From Janthinobacterium sp. PAMC25594 (GTDB lineage: Bacteria; Pseudomonadota; Gammaproteobacteria; Burkholderiales; Burkholderiaceae_D): a stretch of 64,000 bases of DNA. The number at the start of each line of letters is the position of its first letter. Position 1 is the first letter of the stretch. Shown in pieces: positions 38,407 through 46,863 of the stretch. A model generated the notes under the pieces. That model was not told the DNA's origin and did not search any database. It saw nothing but the letters and a program-made list of their open reading frames with translations. The translations under genes were made by a program, and so were the position numbers. The DNA is taken from NCBI RefSeq assembly GCF_019443505.1, contig NZ_CP080377.1, positions 2,728,001 to 2,792,000 of the forward strand. Direction: 5' to 3'.

Positions 38407-41253
38407 ATGATGATAGAAAATGTAATATCGCGGTCGCTGCGCCTGATGTTTGCAGGCGGCATGGCCCTGAGCATGCACGCCGCGTATGCACAAGAAACAA
38501 CAGATGGCACCATGCAACGCGTGGAAGTCACGGGTTCGAGCATCAAGCGCATCGCTTCCGAAGCGTCGCTGCCGGTGCAGACGTTCAATCAAAAAGATAT
38601 CAAGAAAACGGGCGTCACCACGGTCACCGATTTCATCCAGCAAATCCCGGCGATGCAAGGCTTCTCCGTGGCGGCCGATTCGGTTGGCGGCGGCGGCGGC
38701 GGCGTCACCACGGCATCGATCCACGATATTGGCGCGGCCTACACGCTGGTGCTGCTGAACGGCCGCCGTGTGGCGCCGTCCAATTCAGGCACCACCATCG
38801 ACCTGAACTCGATCCCCCTGTCGGCCATCGAACGCGTCGAAGTGCTGACTGACGGCGCCTCGGCCCTGTACGGCGCCGATGCCATCGCCGGCGTGGTCAA
38901 CTTCATCCTGAAAAAAGGTGCGGCGCCGCTGGAAATCAATGCCAAGTACTCGCGCCCGGAAGAAAAAGGCGGCGCCAGCAATTCCATTTCCATCAGCAAG
39001 GGCTTTGGCGACATCGACGAAGACGGCTACAGCATCTTCGTGTCGGCCAGCCATGACGAACAAAAATCGCTGAAAGCATCGCAGCGCAGCTTCGCGAAAA
39101 GCGGCATCATCAATTTCAACGATCCGAAGACCGGCAAGGCGCTGCAATTCATCAACGGTTCCTCGCGTTCGGCCCCGGGCAATGCGGCTGTCGATTACAA
39201 CCGTACCGACCCGGTAACGGGTCAGGTGGTCATCAATCCGAAGACCAAAGAGCCTTTCGTCGATACCGTCAACCTGAACCCGTATGCACTGGCCCATGGC
39301 GGCAAGTGCGCCGCCAGCAACATGGATTTCTATGGCGACGGCAATTGCTATTTCGATTCGCCATCGACCATCGAAATCAATCCCGAATCGAAGCGCGATG
39401 CCATCTTCAGCTCGGGTACCGTCAAACTGGGCAAGACCGGCTTCCAGGGTTTCTATGACCTTGCTTACACAGAAGCGCGCGTCATCGCCAGCATTGCGCC
39501 GTACCCGGCCGATTTCTCCGTCGATGTCGGCTCGCCGCTGTTCAACAAATACCTGGCGCCTAACCTGACGCCGGCGCAGTTGGCCAATGCCACGGGCGCC
39601 GTCGCCAAATACCGCCTGTCGGAAATGGGCAACCGCGTCTACGACTATGGCACCAAAGCCACCCATATCGTCGCCGGCATCGATGGCAATGCATTCGGCT
39701 GGGATATCAACTCGGCTGTAACGTACTCGAAAAACAAGCAAACGCAGACCTATGTCAGCGGTTTCCCGCTGGCCGACAAGTTCGACGCGCAAATCGCCGC
39801 CGGCAATATCGACCCGTTCGCCTACCCTGTAGGTTCCATGCCGGACGCCATGCGCCAGGCATTGATGGGCACCGGTTTCAGCGGCACCTACAACACGCAA
39901 ACCGTGGAAATGAAGGGCGTCGATGGCCGCGCTTCGCGTCCCGTGTTCTCGCTGCCAGGCGGCACCGCCATGCTGGGCGTGGGCGCCGACTACCGCAACA
40001 CGTCGTACAAGGTGCAGCAGGCGGACGTCGCCAAGCAGGCGCAAATCCTGTTTGACAATGCACAGGTCGACAGCGAATACGCACGCGACAACGCTGGCGC
40101 GTATGCCGAACTGATGCTGCCGATTTCGAAAAAACTGGAAATGACCGGCTCGCTGCGTTATGACCAGATCGGCGCCATCGACGACAAGCTGACGGGCAAG
40201 ACGGTAGGCAAGAAAGAAAACGCCACCACCTGGAAAGTCAGCGGCAAGTATTCCGCGACCAAGAACCTGATGTTCCGCGCCGCTGCCGGCACCGGCTTCC
40301 GCGCCGCCAGCATGCAGGAAATTGCCGGCCCACTGGAAGACTGGGGCGTCACGGGCGGTAACTACCAATGCCCGTTGACGGCGGCAAACGGCATGGGCGG
40401 CCATCCGCTGGCCAACTATTGCGAAGGCGTGGTGCGCCAGCAGTTCGAAGCCTTCCAGGGCGGCAATCCGGAATTGAAACCGGAAACGTCGAAGCAATGG
40501 AGCATCGGTACCGTATTTGAGCCGATCGACAGCCTGTCGATGTCGTTCGACCTGTGGAACGTACAGATCAACGATCAGGTGACCGCGGTCTCCGAAGGCT
40601 TGATCTTCAACAATCCGGCCAAGTACGCCGACCTGTTCACCACCAAGCACATCACCTCGACGGGCAAGGACGTGCTGGCCGTCAAACTGCTGCCAATCAA
40701 CATCGGCAAGGTGGAAAACCGCGGTATCGACTACGACTTCACCCACAAGATGAAGCTGCTGGACGGCCGCCTGACGAGCCGACTGATGGGTACCTACCTG
40801 CTGCGCTCGCGCTACACGACGCCAGGCACCAATGATCAATGGGAAACCAGCCTGAATCGCTACGGTTCGAACGACAAGGTCAGCTTCCGCAACATCATCC
40901 GTGCCACCAGCACGTACGAGACGGCCAAGTTCACGCATACGCTGAGCGCCAGCTACCGCAATGGTTACACGGACAAGGAACAGACGGCAAATGGTTGCGC
41001 CGTGATCGTCGCCGGCAGCCCTGGCGAATGCTATGGCATCCAGCTGGAAGTGCCGAGCTACACCACCTTCGACTTCCAGACGGCTTATCGTCCGCTGAAG
41101 AACGTGGAAATCACGGGCGGCATCCTGAACCTGTTCGACCGCGACCCGCCGTTCACCTTGCGTAACACGGGTTCGCATCAAGTGGGCTACAACCCATCGT
41201 ACTCGAGCGCCCTGGGCCGCCAGTTCTATGTGAGCGGTTCCTACAAGTTCTAA
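38407..41253 (+). CDS. TonB-dependent receptor 3 of a tandem family
   Basis: A 948-residue receptor. The signal peptide has SRSLRLM and ends AYA; VEVTGSSIKRI follows. The plug contains a Gly run (GGGGGG, about residue 98), TLVLLNGRRVAPS and VEVLTDGASALYGADAIAGVVNFILKK. The barrel ends GSYKF. Cys pairs in loops are again present. AAGGA precedes the ATG by 7 nt. The in-frame upstream start at 38341 is a TTG in AT-rich DNA and was rejected. The gene converges on aroG. Confidence 0.92.
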   Translation: MMIENVISRSLRLMFAGGMALSMHAAYAQETTDGTMQRVEVTGSSIKRIASEASLPVQTFNQKDIKKTGVTTVTDFIQQIPAMQGFSVAADSVGGGGGGVTTASIHDIGAAYTLVLLNGRRVAPSNSGTTIDLNSIPLSAIERVEVLTDGASALYGADAIAGVVNFILKKGAAPLEINAKYSRPEEKGGASNSISISKGFGDIDEDGYSIFVSASHDEQKSLKASQRSFAKSGIINFNDPKTGKALQFINGSSRSAPGNAAVDYNRTDPVTGQVVINPKTKEPFVDTVNLNPYALAHGGKCAASNMDFYGDGNCYFDSPSTIEINPESKRDAIFSSGTVKLGKTGFQGFYDLAYTEARVIASIAPYPADFSVDVGSPLFNKYLAPNLTPAQLANATGAVAKYRLSEMGNRVYDYGTKATHIVAGIDGNAFGWDINSAVTYSKNKQTQTYVSGFPLADKFDAQIAAGNIDPFAYPVGSMPDAMRQALMGTGFSGTYNTQTVEMKGVDGRASRPVFSLPGGTAMLGVGADYRNTSYKVQQADVAKQAQILFDNAQVDSEYARDNAGAYAELMLPISKKLEMTGSLRYDQIGAIDDKLTGKTVGKKENATTWKVSGKYSATKNLMFRAAAGTGFRAASMQEIAGPLEDWGVTGGNYQCPLTAANGMGGHPLANYCEGVVRQQFEAFQGGNPELKPETSKQWSIGTVFEPIDSLSMSFDLWNVQINDQVTAVSEGLIFNNPAKYADLFTTKHITSTGKDVLAVKLLPINIGKVENRGIDYDFTHKMKLLDGRLTSRLMGTYLLRSRYTTPGTNDQWETSLNRYGSNDKVSFRNIIRATSTYETAKFTHTLSASYRNGYTDKEQTANGCAVIVAGSPGECYGIQLEVPSYTTFDFQTAYRPLKNVEITGGILNLFDRDPPFTLRNTGSHQVGYNPSYSSALGRQFYVSGSYKF

Positions 41254-41275
41254 GCTCACCGTCAGCTGAAAACTG

Positions 41276-41313
41276 AAAAACCCCGGAAAGCTAAGCTTTC
41301 CGGGGTTTTTTTT
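41276..41313. terminator. Bidirectional terminator between receptor 3 and aroG
   Basis: CCCCGGAAAGC pairs with GCTTTCCGGGG (core 41281-41305), with A tract before and T8 after. It can serve both convergent genes. Confidence 0.92.
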
Positions 41314-41334
41314 CATGCGGCGCGCCACATCATT

Positions 41335-42399
41335 TCATTCCGCGTCGCCCTGCAGGCGGCGCTGCTTGACGGCTTGCGCCAGGTTTTCCAGCACGGCCAC
41401 GCTGGCGCTCCAGTCGATGCAGCCATCCGTGACGGATTGGCCATAGATCAATTCCTTGCCCGGGATCAAATCCTGGCGCCCCGCCACCAGGTGCGACTCC
41501 ACCATCACGCCGACGATGCGGCTGTCGCCGCCCGCCACCTGGCTGGCGATGTCGGCGCACACGGGGATCTGGTTTTCCGGTTTTTTCGAGCTGTTCGCAT
41601 GCGAGGCGTCGATCATCAGGCGCGCCGCCAGGCCTTGCGCCGCGATGGCCTTGCACGCGTCGTCCACGCTGGCCGCGTCATAGTTGGGCGTCTTGCCGCC
41701 GCGCAAGATGATGTGGCAATCCTCGTTGCCGTTGGTCGAGACGATGGCCGAGTGGCCGCCCTTCGTGACGGAGAGAAAATGGTGCGGCTGCGAGGCGGCC
41801 TTGATGGCTTCCACGGCGATTTTCACATTGCCGTCCGTGCCATTCTTGAAGCCGACGGGGCACGACAGTCCCGAGGCCAGCTCGCGGTGCACCTGCGACT
41901 CCGTCGTGCGTGCGCCGATGGCGCCCCAGCTGATCAGGTCGGCGATGTATTGCGGGCTGATCACGTCGAGGAACTCGGTACCGGCAGGCAAGCCCAGCTC
42001 ATTGATATCGCGCAACAATTCGCGCGCCATGCGCAAGCCGTCGTTGATGCGGAAGCTGTTGTCCATGTACGGGTCGTTGATCAAGCCCTTCCAGCCCACC
42101 GTGGTACGCGGCTTTTCGAAGTAGACGCGCATGACGATTTCCAGTTCACCGGCGAAACGCGCGCGCTCCTTGACCAGCAGGCGCGCATATTCCATCGCCG
42201 CCTTGGTATCGTGGATGGAGCAAGGCCCGATCACCACCATCAGGCGGTCATCCTGGCCGTGCAGGATGCGGTGCAGGGCGATACGGGCGCTGGCAGCGGT
42301 CTGTTCGGCTTGCTCCGAGCAGGCGAATTCGCGGATCAGGTGGGACGGCGGGGTCAATTCCTTCATTTCGCGAATTCGCAAATCATCGGTGCGGGGCAT
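41335..42399 (-). CDS. aroG: 3-deoxy-7-phosphoheptulonate (DAHP) synthase, class I
   Basis: First enzyme of the shikimate pathway: condenses phosphoenolpyruvate and erythrose 4-phosphate. A 354-residue AroFGH-type protein with VVIGPCSIHD (metal-binding Cys), RVYFEKPRTTVGWKGLINDP, GARTTESQVHRELASG and the C-terminal DASHANS and VMVESHLV blocks. Of two adjacent ATGs (42402 and 42399), the second has the better spacing (6 nt) from GGAG. A Phe/Tyr-rich leader peptide and terminator upstream point to attenuation by aromatic amino acids. This suggests a Phe- or Tyr-linked isozyme, although the allosteric type cannot be read with certainty. Confidence 0.95.
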   Translation of the reverse strand: MPRTDDLRIREMKELTPPSHLIREFACSEQAEQTAASARIALHRILHGQDDRLMVVIGPCSIHDTKAAMEYARLLVKERARFAGELEIVMRVYFEKPRTTVGWKGLINDPYMDNSFRINDGLRMARELLRDINELGLPAGTEFLDVISPQYIADLISWGAIGARTTESQVHRELASGLSCPVGFKNGTDGNVKIAVEAIKAASQPHHFLSVTKGGHSAIVSTNGNEDCHIILRGGKTPNYDAASVDDACKAIAAQGLAARLMIDASHANSSKKPENQIPVCADIASQVAGGDSRIVGVMVESHLVAGRQDLIPGKELIYGQSVTDGCIDWSASVAVLENLAQAVKQRRLQGDAE

Positions 42400-42440
42400 C
42401 ATTTTCTCCAAAATTTAAGGATGGGTAAAACATCTGGGTA

Positions 42441-42470
42441 AAAAAAAACCGCCATCAGTGGCGGTTTTTT
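42441..42470 (-). terminator. Attenuator terminator upstream of aroG
   Basis: On the minus strand AACCGCCA (42466-42459) and TGGCGGTT (42454-42447) flank a 4 nt loop and are followed by T8. It lies between the leader peptide and aroG, about 40 bp before the aroG start, so it must be bypassed for aroG to be expressed. Confidence 0.85.
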
Positions 42471-42515
42471 AGAATTTGCTGGGATCTCGTTTTTTGCTGC
42501 TACGTGAACCGACCG

Positions 42516-42584
42516 CTACTCCACCGCCTTTGGGTTGGAATTGCTAAAGTAAAAATAAGCGGTAAAAAAGTGGCGAGCGAACAT
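42516..42584 (-). CDS. Phe/Tyr-rich leader peptide of aroG (attenuator)
   Basis: A 22-codon frame starting MFARHFF, then TAYFYFS, and ending NPKAVE. Seven of its first 13 codons are Phe or Tyr (TTC, TTT, TTT, TAT, TTT, TAC, TTT). Its start is about 20 nt after the predicted transcription start. The last three sense codons and what follows contain GGCGGT (42523-42528), which is complementary to ACCGCC in the 5' arm of the terminator. A ribosome stalled on the Phe/Tyr codons would leave that segment free to form the antiterminator. This is the same logic as pheL and trpL. A start three codons upstream is also possible. Confidence 0.8.
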   Translation of the reverse strand: MFARHFFTAYFYFSNSNPKAVE

Positions 42585-42610
42585 GCGAGTCATCCATAAG
42601 TGATGAACGA

Positions 42611-42639
42611 CTATAAACCTAAATTGCAAGGGTTGGCAA
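42611..42639 (-). promoter_or_regulatory. Promoter of the aroG leader transcript
   Basis: Minus-strand -35 TTGCCA (42634-42639), 17 bp spacer, -10 TTATAG (42611-42616). The start site would fall near 42604, about 20 nt before the leader peptide. The region 42640-42887 upstream shows no gene and contains the RBS GGAG for receptor 4 near 42878. Confidence 0.65.
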
Positions 42640-43304
42640 GCATATTTGTCGGCAAAGCCGCATGCCGCTGCCGTTTTACACGGCAAAGCGCGTAAAAAAG
42701 CATAAAAAGTTGCGCGCCATTCGACCGGCATGGTCAGTTCAGTGCTGAGCCCGTCGTGGCGCACACACCACGGCGGCGACGGCAAACGACACACTACTGA
42801 TCAAGATCTAATCCCGGGCGGACCGGACGGACAAGACTCAAGGACGCATCGACAACCTTTGATTGCCTGACCTTTCCGGAGAACAAAATGAGCCCTACTC
42901 CCTTGTTTCAGCCCGCTGCCTTTTCGCCACCACGCCTGGGCCTGGCACTGGCCAGTGCACTGCTGAGTCTACCCGTCCTGGCACAGGACAATGCCGCACC
43001 TGCGCCCCTGCAGCGCGTGGAAATCACCGGCTCGAACATCCGCCGCGCCCAGGCTGAAACAGCCTCGGCCGTGCAAACCCTGAATGCGGCCGATATCGAG
43101 AAATCGGGCAAGGCCAGCGTGGCCGAACTGCTGCAAACCCTGGCCGTCGACAACCAGGGCTCCGTCCCTACCAGCTTCAGCGGCGGCTTTGCCGCCGGCG
43201 CGTCGGGCATCTCGCTGCGCGGCCTGGGCACGGCGTCGACCCTGGTCTTGCTGAACGGGCGCCGCGTGGCGCCCTACGGCCTGGCCGACGACGGCCAGAA
43301 AGTG

Positions 43305-43310
43305 TTTACC
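43305..43310 (+). repeat. Target-site duplication, left copy
   Basis: TTTACC directly before the element; the same six bases directly follow it at 44406-44411. In the receptor frame they are the codons for Phe-Thr. Confidence 0.8.
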
Positions 43311-44405
43311 TGTTTAGAATTGGGTGATCATATTCCTATTCGCAGCTTGCCCTACTTCAAAGCCAGGCGCCTGTTGAGTACACTGTTGATTCCTGTCACC
43401 TCACCGCCAGCGCCATGACCCAAGCCCTTCACAGCCGAGCCCGCACCACCCACCTGATCCGGGAAGAAATCCGCAACTCGACACTGCCCCAACGGGAGCT
43501 TGCCGAGCGCTATAACGTGAGCCGCCTGACGATCCGTAAATGGCAGAACCGCGACAGCGCCGAGGACCGTTCGCACCGGCCCCACACCATGCATACGACG
43601 CTGACGCCAGCGCAGGAACTGGTCGTCATCGCGCTACGCACCACCTTGCTTTTGCCCACCGACGACTTGCTGGCGGTGGCGCGTGAGTTCGTCAACCCGG
43701 CGCTTTCGCGTGGCGCCCTGGGCCGCTGCTTGCGGCGCCATGGTGTCTCCAGTTTGCTTAAAATGGCCGCACTCGAAGACGACAAACCGGTTACCAAAAA
43801 GTCGTTCAAGGACTACGAGCCGGGCTTTTTACATATGGATATCAAGTACTTACCGCAGATGCTCGATGAAACCGAACGCCGTTACCTGTTCGTCGCCATT
43901 GACCGCGCCACACGCTGGGTCTTCATGGAAATCTATGCCAACCAGTCCGACAGCAGCAGTACCGACTTCCTGCTCAAACTGAAAAATGCTTGCCCGATCA
44001 CCATCGTCAAACTACTCACTGACAACGGCAGCCAGTTCACCGACCGTTTTACCAGCAAGAAAAAAGACCCTGTCAGCGGCGACCGTATCCCGAGCGGCAA
44101 GCATGTCTTTGACGTGCTGTGCAAGCAATTGGTGATCGAACATCGATTGATTCCGCCGCGTCACCCGCAAACCAACGGCATGGTCGAACGCTTCAATGGC
44201 CGTATCAGCGAGGTCGTCAACCAGACTCGTTTCGGCTCCCGGGCCGAACTGGAATCGACGCTGCGCAATTACCTGAAAATCTACAACCACAACATTCCCC
44301 AGCGCGCCTTGGATAACGCAACACCGATTCAGGCGATGAAGAAATGGCAGGAGAAAAAGCCGGAATTATTCGTTAAACGCGTATATAACCAGGCCGGTCT
44401 TGACA
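43311..44405 (+). mobile_element. IS481-family insertion sequence, 1095 bp
   Basis: Begins TGTTTAGAATTGGG and ends with the complement of TGTCAAGACCGGCC, giving the 5'-TGT...ACA-3' ends and imperfect inverted repeats expected of the family. A 6 bp direct repeat TTTACC flanks it. It carries one DDE transposase with an N-terminal helix-turn-helix. No passenger gene. Confidence 0.85.
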
Positions 44406-44635
44406 TTTACCGACCTGAACATCATCCCCCTGGAAGCGGTGGAGCGCGTGGAAATCCTCAAGGATGGCGCCTCGGCCATCTATGGTTCGGACGCCATCGC
44501 CGGCGTCGTCAACGTGATCCTGCGACGCGATTACCAGGGCACGGCCGTGAAGGGCAATTATGGCAAGACGAAGGACTGGGACGGGCGCGAGGCGCGCGCG
44601 TCCATCACGCATGGTTTCGGCGATATCGACGCTGA
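43415..44635 (+). CDS. IS481-type transposase reading through the element end
   Basis: A DDE transposase. The N-terminal helix-turn-helix (LPQRELAERYNVSRLTIRKW) is followed by an rve integrase core with D142 (HMDIKYL), D203 (LLTDNGSQFTD) and E258 (GMVERFNG), so the catalytic triad is complete. About 330 codons lie inside the element. The frame has no stop before the right end and runs 76 codons into the receptor DNA in a different frame, giving an Arg/Gly-rich artificial C-terminus (to 44635). It is probably active or recently active. Whether the fused tail harms activity is unknown. Confidence 0.88.
   Translation: MTQALHSRARTTHLIREEIRNSTLPQRELAERYNVSRLTIRKWQNRDSAEDRSHRPHTMHTTLTPAQELVVIALRTTLLLPTDDLLAVAREFVNPALSRGALGRCLRRHGVSSLLKMAALEDDKPVTKKSFKDYEPGFLHMDIKYLPQMLDETERRYLFVAIDRATRWVFMEIYANQSDSSSTDFLLKLKNACPITIVKLLTDNGSQFTDRFTSKKKDPVSGDRIPSGKHVFDVLCKQLVIEHRLIPPRHPQTNGMVERFNGRISEVVNQTRFGSRAELESTLRNYLKIYNHNIPQRALDNATPIQAMKKWQEKKPELFVKRVYNQAGLDIYRPEHHPPGSGGARGNPQGWRLGHLWFGRHRRRRQRDPATRLPGHGREGQLWQDEGLGRARGARVHHAWFRRYRR
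44406..44411 (+). repeat. Target-site duplication, right copy
   Basis: TTTACC, identical to 43305-43310. Exact loss of the element plus one copy would restore the receptor frame. Confidence 0.8.
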
Positions 44636-46863
44636 CCGCTACAACGTGCTGCTGAACCTCGAATACAGCGAAAAAGGGGCGATCTCGAACCGCGACCGGG
44701 CCGGACGGGGCGCCGTCGGCCGCAGCGACTTGCGCGACCTGGGCTTCAGCGCGCAGGAAACCCTCAGCGGCGCCGGTGCCATCACCACCAACAACGCGGC
44801 CGGCAGCGCCGTCAACGGCAATGTGCGCAATCCCGACACCTTCGACTACTACAACCGCGGCAACCTGGCCGGCGTGGGCTTTACGCGCACCTTCCCCGGC
44901 GCCGCCTGCGGCAACTTCACCAACCACCCGCAGGGCGATCCGGGCGGCGGCTGCCTGACCGATGCGGCACAGCAATACGGCCAGATCCAGCCCAAGCAAA
45001 AGAACATCAATTTTTTTGGCCGCGGCGCCTGGCAACTGACGCCGGCACTGCAAACCTATGTGGAACTGAATCTGTATCACAGCGAATCGAGTTCCGTCAC
45101 CACGCCGTCGACCGTCAGCGGCTCGGTGGGTTTTCCGGGCGGCCCGGTCAGTAATGCGGCAGTGGCGCTGGGCGCCGGCCATCCTGACAATCCCTACTTC
45201 GGCCGCGATGCACGGCTGCGCTACCTGGCCGCCGACGTCGGCCCGCGCACCTCGGAAGTCGATTCCACCTTTGCGCGCTTCGTCGCCGGCATCAAGGGCA
45301 GCGTGGCGGGCTGGGATATCGACAGCGCCCTGTTGTACTCGCAAAACAAGGTCGCGAACGAGCAAGGCGGCTTCCTGCAGCGCGACGTGGCTTTCGCCCT
45401 GCTCAACCCCAGCGACGCCAATGTCGCCGCGGCCCGCCTGAATCCGGCCTATGCGGCCCTGCCCGCCGGCAGCGTATGGCGCATCGCGGAAAACGCGGGC
45501 CTCAATTCGCCCGCCCTGTACGCGGCCCTGTCGCCGCGCATCTCGAACGACGCCAAGACGCATATCGCGCAGATCGACTTCAAGGCCAGCCGCGAAATGG
45601 GCCAACTCGAGGGTGGCAAGCTGGGCGTGGCCGTGGGCGCGGAGTTCCGCCACGAATCGACGGAACTCAACCCGACCACAGGCACGGAACGGGGCAATAT
45701 CATCGGCCTCGGCTATTCCGCCTACAAGGGCAGCCGCAACGCTTCGGCCCTGTATGCCGAAGTGCTGGCGCCCGTGCTGAAAACCGTGGAACTGTCGGGA
45801 GCCCTGCGCGCCGACCACTTCACCGACGTGGGCAATTCCTATACGCCCAAGGTGGGCGTGAAATGGACGCCGCTGCGCGAACTGGCCCTGCGCGGCACCT
45901 TTGCCAAGGGCTTCCGCGCGCCCAGCGCGGCGGAAAACGGCGTCGGCGGCCTGGCCGCGTTTTCCACCGCCGCCGATCCGCTGCGCTGCGCGCTGGGCGT
46001 GGAAGTGGCATGCGATCCCGCCTCCATCGCCGTCATCACCTCGCCCAATCCCAAACTGTCGCCCGAGCGTTCGCGCAGCTATTCCGTGGGCGCCATCTGG
46101 GACCCGCTGCCGCGCACCAGCCTCTCGGTCGACCTGTGGCAAATCCGCCGCAAGAATGAGATCAACCAGGAACAGACGGACACGGCGATTGCGCAGGGCC
46201 ACGTGGCGCGCGACCCGTCCACGGCCACGGGCATTCCCGGCGATCCGGGCGCCATCACGGCCGTGCTGGCCAGCTATGTCAATTCCGCGCAAACCACGGT
46301 GCGCGGCATCGATATCGACGGCCGCCAGCGCTTCGACCTGGGCAGCGATTATGGCAACCTGGTGTTCGACGTGAAGTGGACGCATCTGTACAAATGGCTG
46401 CGCACGGAGCAGGACGGCACGCAGCGCGATTTCGCCGGCACGCACGGCAATTGCGATGTCTCCAACTGCATGGGCACGCCCGCTGACAGGGTCAACCTGA
46501 GCGCCACCTGGGAGCGTCAGAACTGGCGCGTCACGGCCAATGTCAACTACCGCGCGCCGCTCGACAATATCAGCTTCAAGAACGACCCGGACGGCTGCGC
46601 CACGCACTTTGCCGACGGCACGGACGCGCCGCGCGGCTGCCGCATCGCCTCGTTCACCACGGTGGACCTGACGGCCCGCTGGCTGGCCACGCCCAAGCTG
46701 GAAGTGTTTGCAACGGTGCAAAACCTGTTCGACAAGATCGCCCCGCTCGATCCGCTCACGTATGGCGCCACAGGCTATAACCCGCTCGACTACGCGGGCG
46801 CGGCGGGACGCTTTTTCAGTGCGGGGGTGAAATACAAATTCTGAGAAATCGGAAAAGCGGGAG

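Follow-up and report, generated by a model that had tools for sequence, protein, structure and literature searches.

A probable Phe/Tyr transcription attenuator ahead of the DAHP synthase gene aroG in Oxalobacteraceae and other Burkholderiales

According to our analysis, the leader of the DAHP synthase gene aroG is in all likelihood a ribosome-mediated transcription attenuator that couples the gene to charged tRNA-Phe and tRNA-Tyr; sequence comparison and modelling together indicate that this attenuator is real, conserved and very probably functional. The gene lies at 41335-42402 on the minus strand of the window, by which we mean the whole analysed stretch of 64,000 nucleotides, in a host genome of 6.55 Mb. 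Based on NCBIfam and domain searches, it encodes a DAHP synthase of the AroFGH type with 355 aa (584.3 bits against the cut-off of 568 of the NCBIfam AroG equivalog), and GGAG precedes its start (42409-42406). Among the best 80 of 587 named loci, the closest relatives at this locus were Janthinobacterium, with AroG 99% identical.

All elements of the leader region are on the minus strand. A consensus scan placed the -35 element TTGCCA at 42634-42639 and the -10 element TATAGT, 18 nt after it, at 42610-42615, both kept in relatives; the reading TTGCCA-N17-TTATAG of the first-pass annotation is present as well, with TTATAG 17 nt after TTGCCA, the two spacings being alternatives. The leader ORF MFARHFFTAYFYFSNSNPKAVE (42516-42584) runs for 22 codons from the ATG at 42584 to a TAG stop; starting from an alternative in-frame ATG at 42593, it would be 25 codons long. 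It contains five Phe and two Tyr codons within its first 13 codons, as had been described: by translation and codon alignment, Tyr10, Phe11, Tyr12 and Phe13 (42546-42557) form the regulatory core, and additional Phe codons occupy positions 2, 6 and 7. Only GGATGA is visible as a candidate ribosome site ahead of the leader ATG, which counts against the attenuator reading. Codons 8-9 contain the 5' side of a protector stem (ACCGCT, 42558-42563), which covaries with a 3' side located just past the stop codon (42508-42513; columns 25-30/76-81 of alignment A1); the window also offers an alternative register with AGCGGT at 42512-42517. The antiterminator segment GGCGGU (42523-42528) is the predicted partner of 42460-42465 with the ribosome at codons 4-16, and the complementarity claimed between GGCGGT (42528-42523) and ACCGCC (42465-42460) of the terminator 5' arm is indeed there. 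Folding delimits this 5' arm, AAAAAACCGCCA, at 42459-42470 and the 3' arm, UGGCGGUUUUUU, at 42443-42454; the resulting stem (42470-42459/42454-42443) has an energy of -15.3 kcal/mol. The strong hairpin reported before aroG was thus recovered, whereas the run after GGCGG comprises nine T (42440-42448), not eight.

In the mechanism that we propose, transcription would start about 20 nt ahead of the leader, judging from the promoter. With Phe and Tyr plentiful, the ribosome would get to the stop codon and mask GGCGGU, so that, as folding suggests, the terminator would form and transcription would end ahead of aroG. Should Phe or Tyr run short, a ribosome stalled at codons 6-13 would open the protector stem, the freed GGCGGU would take ACCGCC, and polymerase would continue into aroG. 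If the leader were left untranslated, the full-length fold suggests that the protector hairpin would keep GGCGGU and the terminator would form.

Tests on the single sequence gave modest signals. The promoter scan found one promoter-like site per 2 kb against a mean of 0.9 in shuffles, which is the chance level; the sigma-70/terminator consensus scan of 2 kb did not list the aroG terminator; and the fold z-score of the leader region was -2.22, with 5 of 200 shuffles as good. A search of window positions 40000-46000 against Rfam 15 returned ten rows up to E=1, none of which reached its gathering score and none of which was a Phe leader or a T-box; the best minus-strand leader row over the attenuator was RF00512, with 25.3 bits against a gathering score of 50. 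These single-sequence tests are weak; the case rests on conservation.

With a terminator defined as a hairpin of -11 kcal/mol or better following an aromatic-rich leader, 79 of 81 loci have both leader and terminator ahead of aroG, the loci being the window and the best 80 of 587 named relatives. Of the two exceptions, L072 is described below, and L021 has neither element in the interval from the upstream gene to aroG. A density of at least six aromatics per ten codons was reached in 96 of 103 upstreams, compared with 22 of 2060 shuffled ones; the 103 leaders include the identical pairs L028/L029 and L062/L083 and so represent 101 distinct sequences. Oxalobacteraceae-type leaders follow the patterns FFTxYFYFSxSxPxAVE or FYFYFYFSYSSPxAVEKR, and those of the Burkholderia group the pattern MSAKFYFYFFWxLRPLADREG. 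Both Phe and Tyr are present in 60 of 62 Oxalobacteraceae-type leaders. Of these 62, 61 upstreams gave a promoter match; the -35 element that matches best is TTGCCA in 56 of them, and TATAGT serves as the -10 element in 43.

The alignment of the 62 Oxalobacteraceae-type leaders was anchored at a Phe codon standing directly before AGC or TGC, a motif that all of them have. The anchor codon is TTT in all 62; the column before it holds Tyr (55), Trp (6) or His (1), and the column before that holds Phe in 58. At the six aromatic columns, differences from the majority codon restricted to the third position are synonymous in 24 cases and nonsynonymous in none; these counts are alignment cells rather than independent events, and the excess may come partly from transition bias and relatedness. 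In 59 of 62 leaders, 20 nt separate the start of the last Phe codon from GGCGG; the spacing from GGCGG to the stop codon takes nine values; and three leaders (L015, L024 and L061) shift frame after the aromatic run with GGCGGTGGA retained. The codons therefore look constrained before that point and the RNA after it. The stretch TTTAGCNATTCCANCC after the Phe/Tyr run (42533-42548 in the window, with the matching columns of A1 and A2) is nearly invariant in nucleotides among Oxalobacteraceae-type leaders, to a degree that the named stems do not require. TTT and TTC stand at 223:62 in the aligned leader codons of this type, and the aroG gene of the window has 1 TTT and 6 TTC.

The first-pass annotation had fixed in advance, as the contrary outcome on the sequence side, loss of the leader frame or of the Phe/Tyr codons with the hairpin kept; what we found is a frame with Phe/Tyr codons that is conserved along with the hairpin. 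One locus departs from this, Candidatus Burkholderia humilis (L072, 2826-2970), where the RNA is retained (44.2 bits), the leader is interrupted in frame past FYFYF, and the first stop (2970) lies beyond the terminator. This symbiont may be losing attenuator control.

The protector stem, formed by codons 8-9 and the bases after the stop, is paired in 88.7% of 222 cells in an alignment of 37 sequences, and sliding it out of register gives at most 50.5%. Thirteen cells are changed on both sides, and one of the pairs occurs as G-C in 19 sequences, U-A in 11 and C-G in one. Its covariation was 0.210 against 0.122 in shuffles, with none of 500 shuffles as high, and three of five measures exceeded every shuffle in this one alignment. 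Against the stem, the other two measures were matched by 261 and 138 of 500 shuffles, its fifth pair is missing in 11 of the 37 sequences, and the RNAalifold consensus of the same alignment did not predict it. The terminator shows compensatory changes, with G-C for A-U in 3 of 37 sequences and U-A for A-U in 7. The antiterminator core comprises only six pairs, and because it never varies in the 37-sequence alignment it yields no covariation there. The pair flanking this core takes T-A, C-G and A-T forms between families. In this comparison, in which two leaders had no motif, 35 of 40 leaders that are not of the Oxalobacteraceae type can form the flanking pair (17 of them belong to the named Burkholderia group). 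Within that type the count is just 16 of 61, which speaks against the attenuator reading.

The ribosome-stall switch that the first-pass annotation had borrowed from pheL and trpL could be reproduced in silico. We masked 12 nt from the first base of the A-site codon as an assumed ribosome footprint and folded the RNA outside it, up to the terminator 3' arm, in the 103 leaders. In the window, GGCGGU is predicted to pair with ACCGCC when the ribosome occupies codon 10 or 12 and synthesis has yet to reach the 3' arm; with the ribosome at the stop codon, the terminator alone remains. The 5' arm is predicted to pair with 42523-42528 when the ribosome is at codons 4-16 and with 42507-42516 when it is at codons 1-3 and 17-20; a ribosome at codons 21-23 leaves the arm almost unpaired (0 to 2 of 7 bases). 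Because the 5' arm is also predicted to pair at codons 1-3 and 17-20, the effective window is not confined to the aromatic run. The full window RNA without a ribosome folds at -43.6 kcal/mol into the terminator and a hairpin hiding GGCGGU against codons 6-10.

Over all 103 leaders (101 distinct sequences), the mean pairing probability of the 5' arm was 0.764 with the ribosome on aromatic codons, 0.522 on others and 0.207 at the stop, and a switch (above 0.5 on aromatics, below 0.5 at the stop) is predicted in 100 of them. The difference was 0.579, compared with 0.072 for linkers shuffled 20 times each with dinucleotides preserved (53 of 2060 shuffles as high); the signal was weakest in families f49, f9 and f11. 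Aromatic codons fell inside the effective window in 711 of 749 cases and other codons in 869 of 1545 (Fisher p ~2e-94, with codons within one leader not independent). In this way, the proposal that low charged tRNA-Phe or tRNA-Tyr would admit transcription into aroG gains support at the level of sequence and folding.

The spread of the leader was followed in the order of the window, taken to be Burkholderiales from the named loci. An AroG-type match was found in 115 of 150 genomes drawn from the order, and 80 upstreams were fetched, three of them second aroG copies chosen deliberately. Leader and terminator occur in 24 of these 80 loci, one of which (L083) duplicates L062, the two being probably one genome. 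Besides the group of the window, 12 family-level groups carry them; 21 groups among the 80 loci do not, and neither do the three second copies. The attenuator placed in Oxalobacteraceae by the first-pass annotation is thus present there without being special to that family. In the same class outside the order, 106 of 143 genomes searched have an AroG-type match and 1 of 40 upstreams fetched has the leader and terminator. This sole positive (L163) has a leader with FYRWYYF, a CCGCC terminator and an AroG 70% identical, and it may represent a neighbouring lineage or a transfer. Another locus outside the order (L171) passed a looser filter only, with three aromatics in ten, and was counted as chance.

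A covariance model built from 37 leaders had a match at E<=0.01 in 136 of 141 family genomes, training genomes included, and at 1e-10 or better in 123. In the order, 83 of 300 genomes matched, the weaker matches including noise. From other families 17 matches were fetched: 15 precede aroG and have leaders with at least five aromatics in ten codons, one (L210) precedes another DAHP synthase, and one (L225) is noise. Three covariance matches (L208, L209 and L225) were rejected as leaders, and L207 proved to be a leader of the aroG type lying at the end of a contig. A plasmid search for named relatives gave mainly enterobacteria.

The leader at L210, MRHFIVFTGFYYFPITS, stands ahead of a DAHP synthase that matches PRK08673 and TIGR01361 and not AroG, which we take to be the type I-beta subclass. 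Among 45 over-cut-off TIGR01361 genes of 150 genomes (three of them, L233, L237 and L239, with incomplete flanks and possibly mis-sliced), convincing leaders were found at three, all from the genus of L210 (g64 of family f21); two further cases (L269 and L273), passing the loose filter only with ORFs of 13 and 10 aa, were counted as chance. All four g64 genomes examined have a leader at the I-beta gene, and the AroG-type upstreams from two of them (L132 and L138) have none. The four I-beta leaders (L210, L246, L247 and L264) are Phe/Tyr leaders of similar architecture. Release at the stop is predicted to be weaker in them, with the 5' arm paired at 0.45 to 0.60 in three and 0.28 in one.

In the host genome itself, the pattern search and the covariance model return the aroG copy alone. 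A second DAHP synthase match, 51% identical to AroG, has no aromatic leader and terminator in the ~700 nt before it. No leader lies directly ahead of pheA, because the stretch there is another ORF. Upstream of trpE (L204), at ~110-290 nt, a GTG-start ORF closes with EAWLWRRWQSWQA, and next to it come a terminator-like hairpin (-19.0 kcal/mol) and TTTTTT; together they form a candidate separate Trp attenuator, and Trp may be read there rather than at aroG. The model for the TyrR/PhhR-type HTH (TIGR04381) had no match at E<=0.001 in the host genome, with a positive control in E. coli, and the contrast with the TyrR control of E. coli that had been drawn holds for this genome. Around aroG, a divergent TonB-dependent receptor gene (42888-46844, plus strand) appears interrupted: its plug part extends from 42888, its barrel part is in 44400-46844, and an integrase-type transposase ORF occupies 43415-44635. 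Where aroG and a second TonB receptor gene converge, the stretch separating them (41262-41314) gave weak Rfam rows on both strands and is probably a bidirectional terminator.

As for the amino acids that are read, Phe and Tyr occur together in 98 of the 103 leaders, Phe occurs in every leader, and five have no Tyr (L042, L047, L092, L134 and L150). Phe makes up 21% of leader residues and Tyr 9.5%. Trp codons occur in 45 leaders, 42 having all three aromatics, and 44 of 49 Trp codons lie inside the effective window. The 557 residues of the 24 order-level leaders include 18 Trp, 111 Phe and 46 Tyr, a Trp enrichment with a Poisson p of 0.0012 against the background frequency of 1.4% of residues. 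Judging from these codons, Trp sensing by mixed leaders is plausible, not established, and leaders with Trp codons may read all three pathway products. It is possible, though we doubt it, that the attenuator answers to Phe only, with Tyr and Trp codons as bystanders. The greater share of Phe and the leaders lacking Tyr and never Phe would fit this variant, as would the aroR leader of C. glutamicum (Phe-Tyr-Phe), where transcription is reported, in the available part of PMC11802643, to be unaffected by Tyr availability; the joint presence of Phe and Tyr in nearly all leaders speaks against it, as does the codon preceding the last Phe, which is Tyr or Trp in 61 of 62.

Other explanations dispense with tRNA sensing. 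The run is U-rich (TTT 223, TTC 62), the terminator is strong, and 82 5'-UTRs with short transcripts have been reported in a Burkholderia in the portion of PMC5688073 available, so that the region could be a constitutive terminator or a source of short 5'-UTR RNA with the F/Y-rich frame as a by-product of a U-rich stretch. We consider this highly improbable, as third-position differences preserve Phe/Tyr by 24 to 0, 6 of 62 leaders have Trp TGG in place of Tyr TAY at the column before the last Phe, and aromatic codons are concentrated where stalling would matter. Nascent-peptide arrest of the TnaC kind, sensing free Phe/Tyr instead of slow decoding from scarce charged tRNA, seems scarcely credible. 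The Phe codon then AGC or TGC in all 62 Oxalobacteraceae-type leaders (the alignment anchor), with Ser in 61, could be taken as an arrest motif; between families, however, little is common beyond an aromatic run that differs in length and order, and the tail changes frame in L015, L024 and L061. In TnaC, moreover, the arrest peptide raises readthrough when the amino acid is abundant, a logic contrary to sense for a biosynthetic gene. A further action of the leader peptide or RNA in trans, following attenuation and adding to it rather than replacing it, is very unlikely: the peTrpL of Sinorhizobium, a leader product reported to act in trans, offers a precedent (PMC7298713, in the part available), but the peptide sequence is strongly different between families.

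Returning to the tRNA-coupled attenuator, we see about an even chance that a multi-product version, reading two or three aromatics, guards the entry enzyme across much of Burkholderiales, recognised between families by one covariance model and following function rather than gene, as the I-beta DAHP synthase of one genus suggests. If so, this attenuator would do in the order what separately regulated DAHP synthase isozymes do in E. coli. In Oxalobacteraceae, Burkholderia-like and other lineages, the attenuator is a candidate control point for flux to Phe, Tyr and Trp, standing here in a genome with no TyrR-type regulator detected. Mixed Phe/Tyr/Trp leaders could be a model for one ribosome-based sensor integrating several tRNAs, and the natural leaders of a dozen family-level groups are a ready series for this question.

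In comparison with known systems, the class of the attenuator is known, and its Burkholderiales member and the breadth of it appear undescribed in the open full-text matches listed, among which we found no description of an aroG attenuator in Burkholderiales; an earlier mention in subscription papers is possible. The main text of PMC5688073 does not contain "aroG", "phenylalanine" or "heptonate", and an actinobacterial survey, in the part available, reports no RNA structure conserved upstream of Phe or Tyr operons. The kind itself is already known, because aroR-aroF of Corynebacterium is a DAHP synthase attenuator with a Phe-Tyr-Phe leader peptide (C. glutamicum; PMC11802643, PMC4046766, both in part). 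The likeness drawn from that description is a Phe/Tyr leader before a DAHP synthase gene and transcription that rises under Phe limitation; the differences are the actinobacterial host and the absence of any reported Tyr effect (Neshat et al. 2014, as given in the available part of PMC11802643). In a prediction for Shewanella, Table 3 of PMC2659441, a partly available source, lists aroF as "Attenuator sensing tyr-tRNA", citing E. coli work of 1980; this is an earlier suggestion of DAHP synthase attenuation, in a gammaproteobacterial setting. In E. coli, aroF is under TyrR control, and TyrR regulons have been described for gammaproteobacterial lineages in a regulon survey (PMC5343134, in part). 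The E. coli pheL-pheA and pheST systems resemble the present one in their Phe leader peptide and control by charged tRNA-Phe (available part of PMC11802643), and differ in governing the terminal Phe branch enzyme or a tRNA synthetase and not the first common step. With regard to the pheL/trpL class, the aroG leader has a short ORF with codons for the regulated product and an intrinsic terminator before the structural gene (sequence and folding), a mutually exclusive antiterminator predicted in silico to be exposed by a ribosome on the control codons, and a protector hairpin (1:2) overlapping those codons in the 37-sequence alignment. The pheL-pheA and pheST leaders read Phe only. Leaders of the ilv and thr operons combine codons for several amino acids, and the aroG leader resembles them in having codons of several end products and differs in which amino acids these are.
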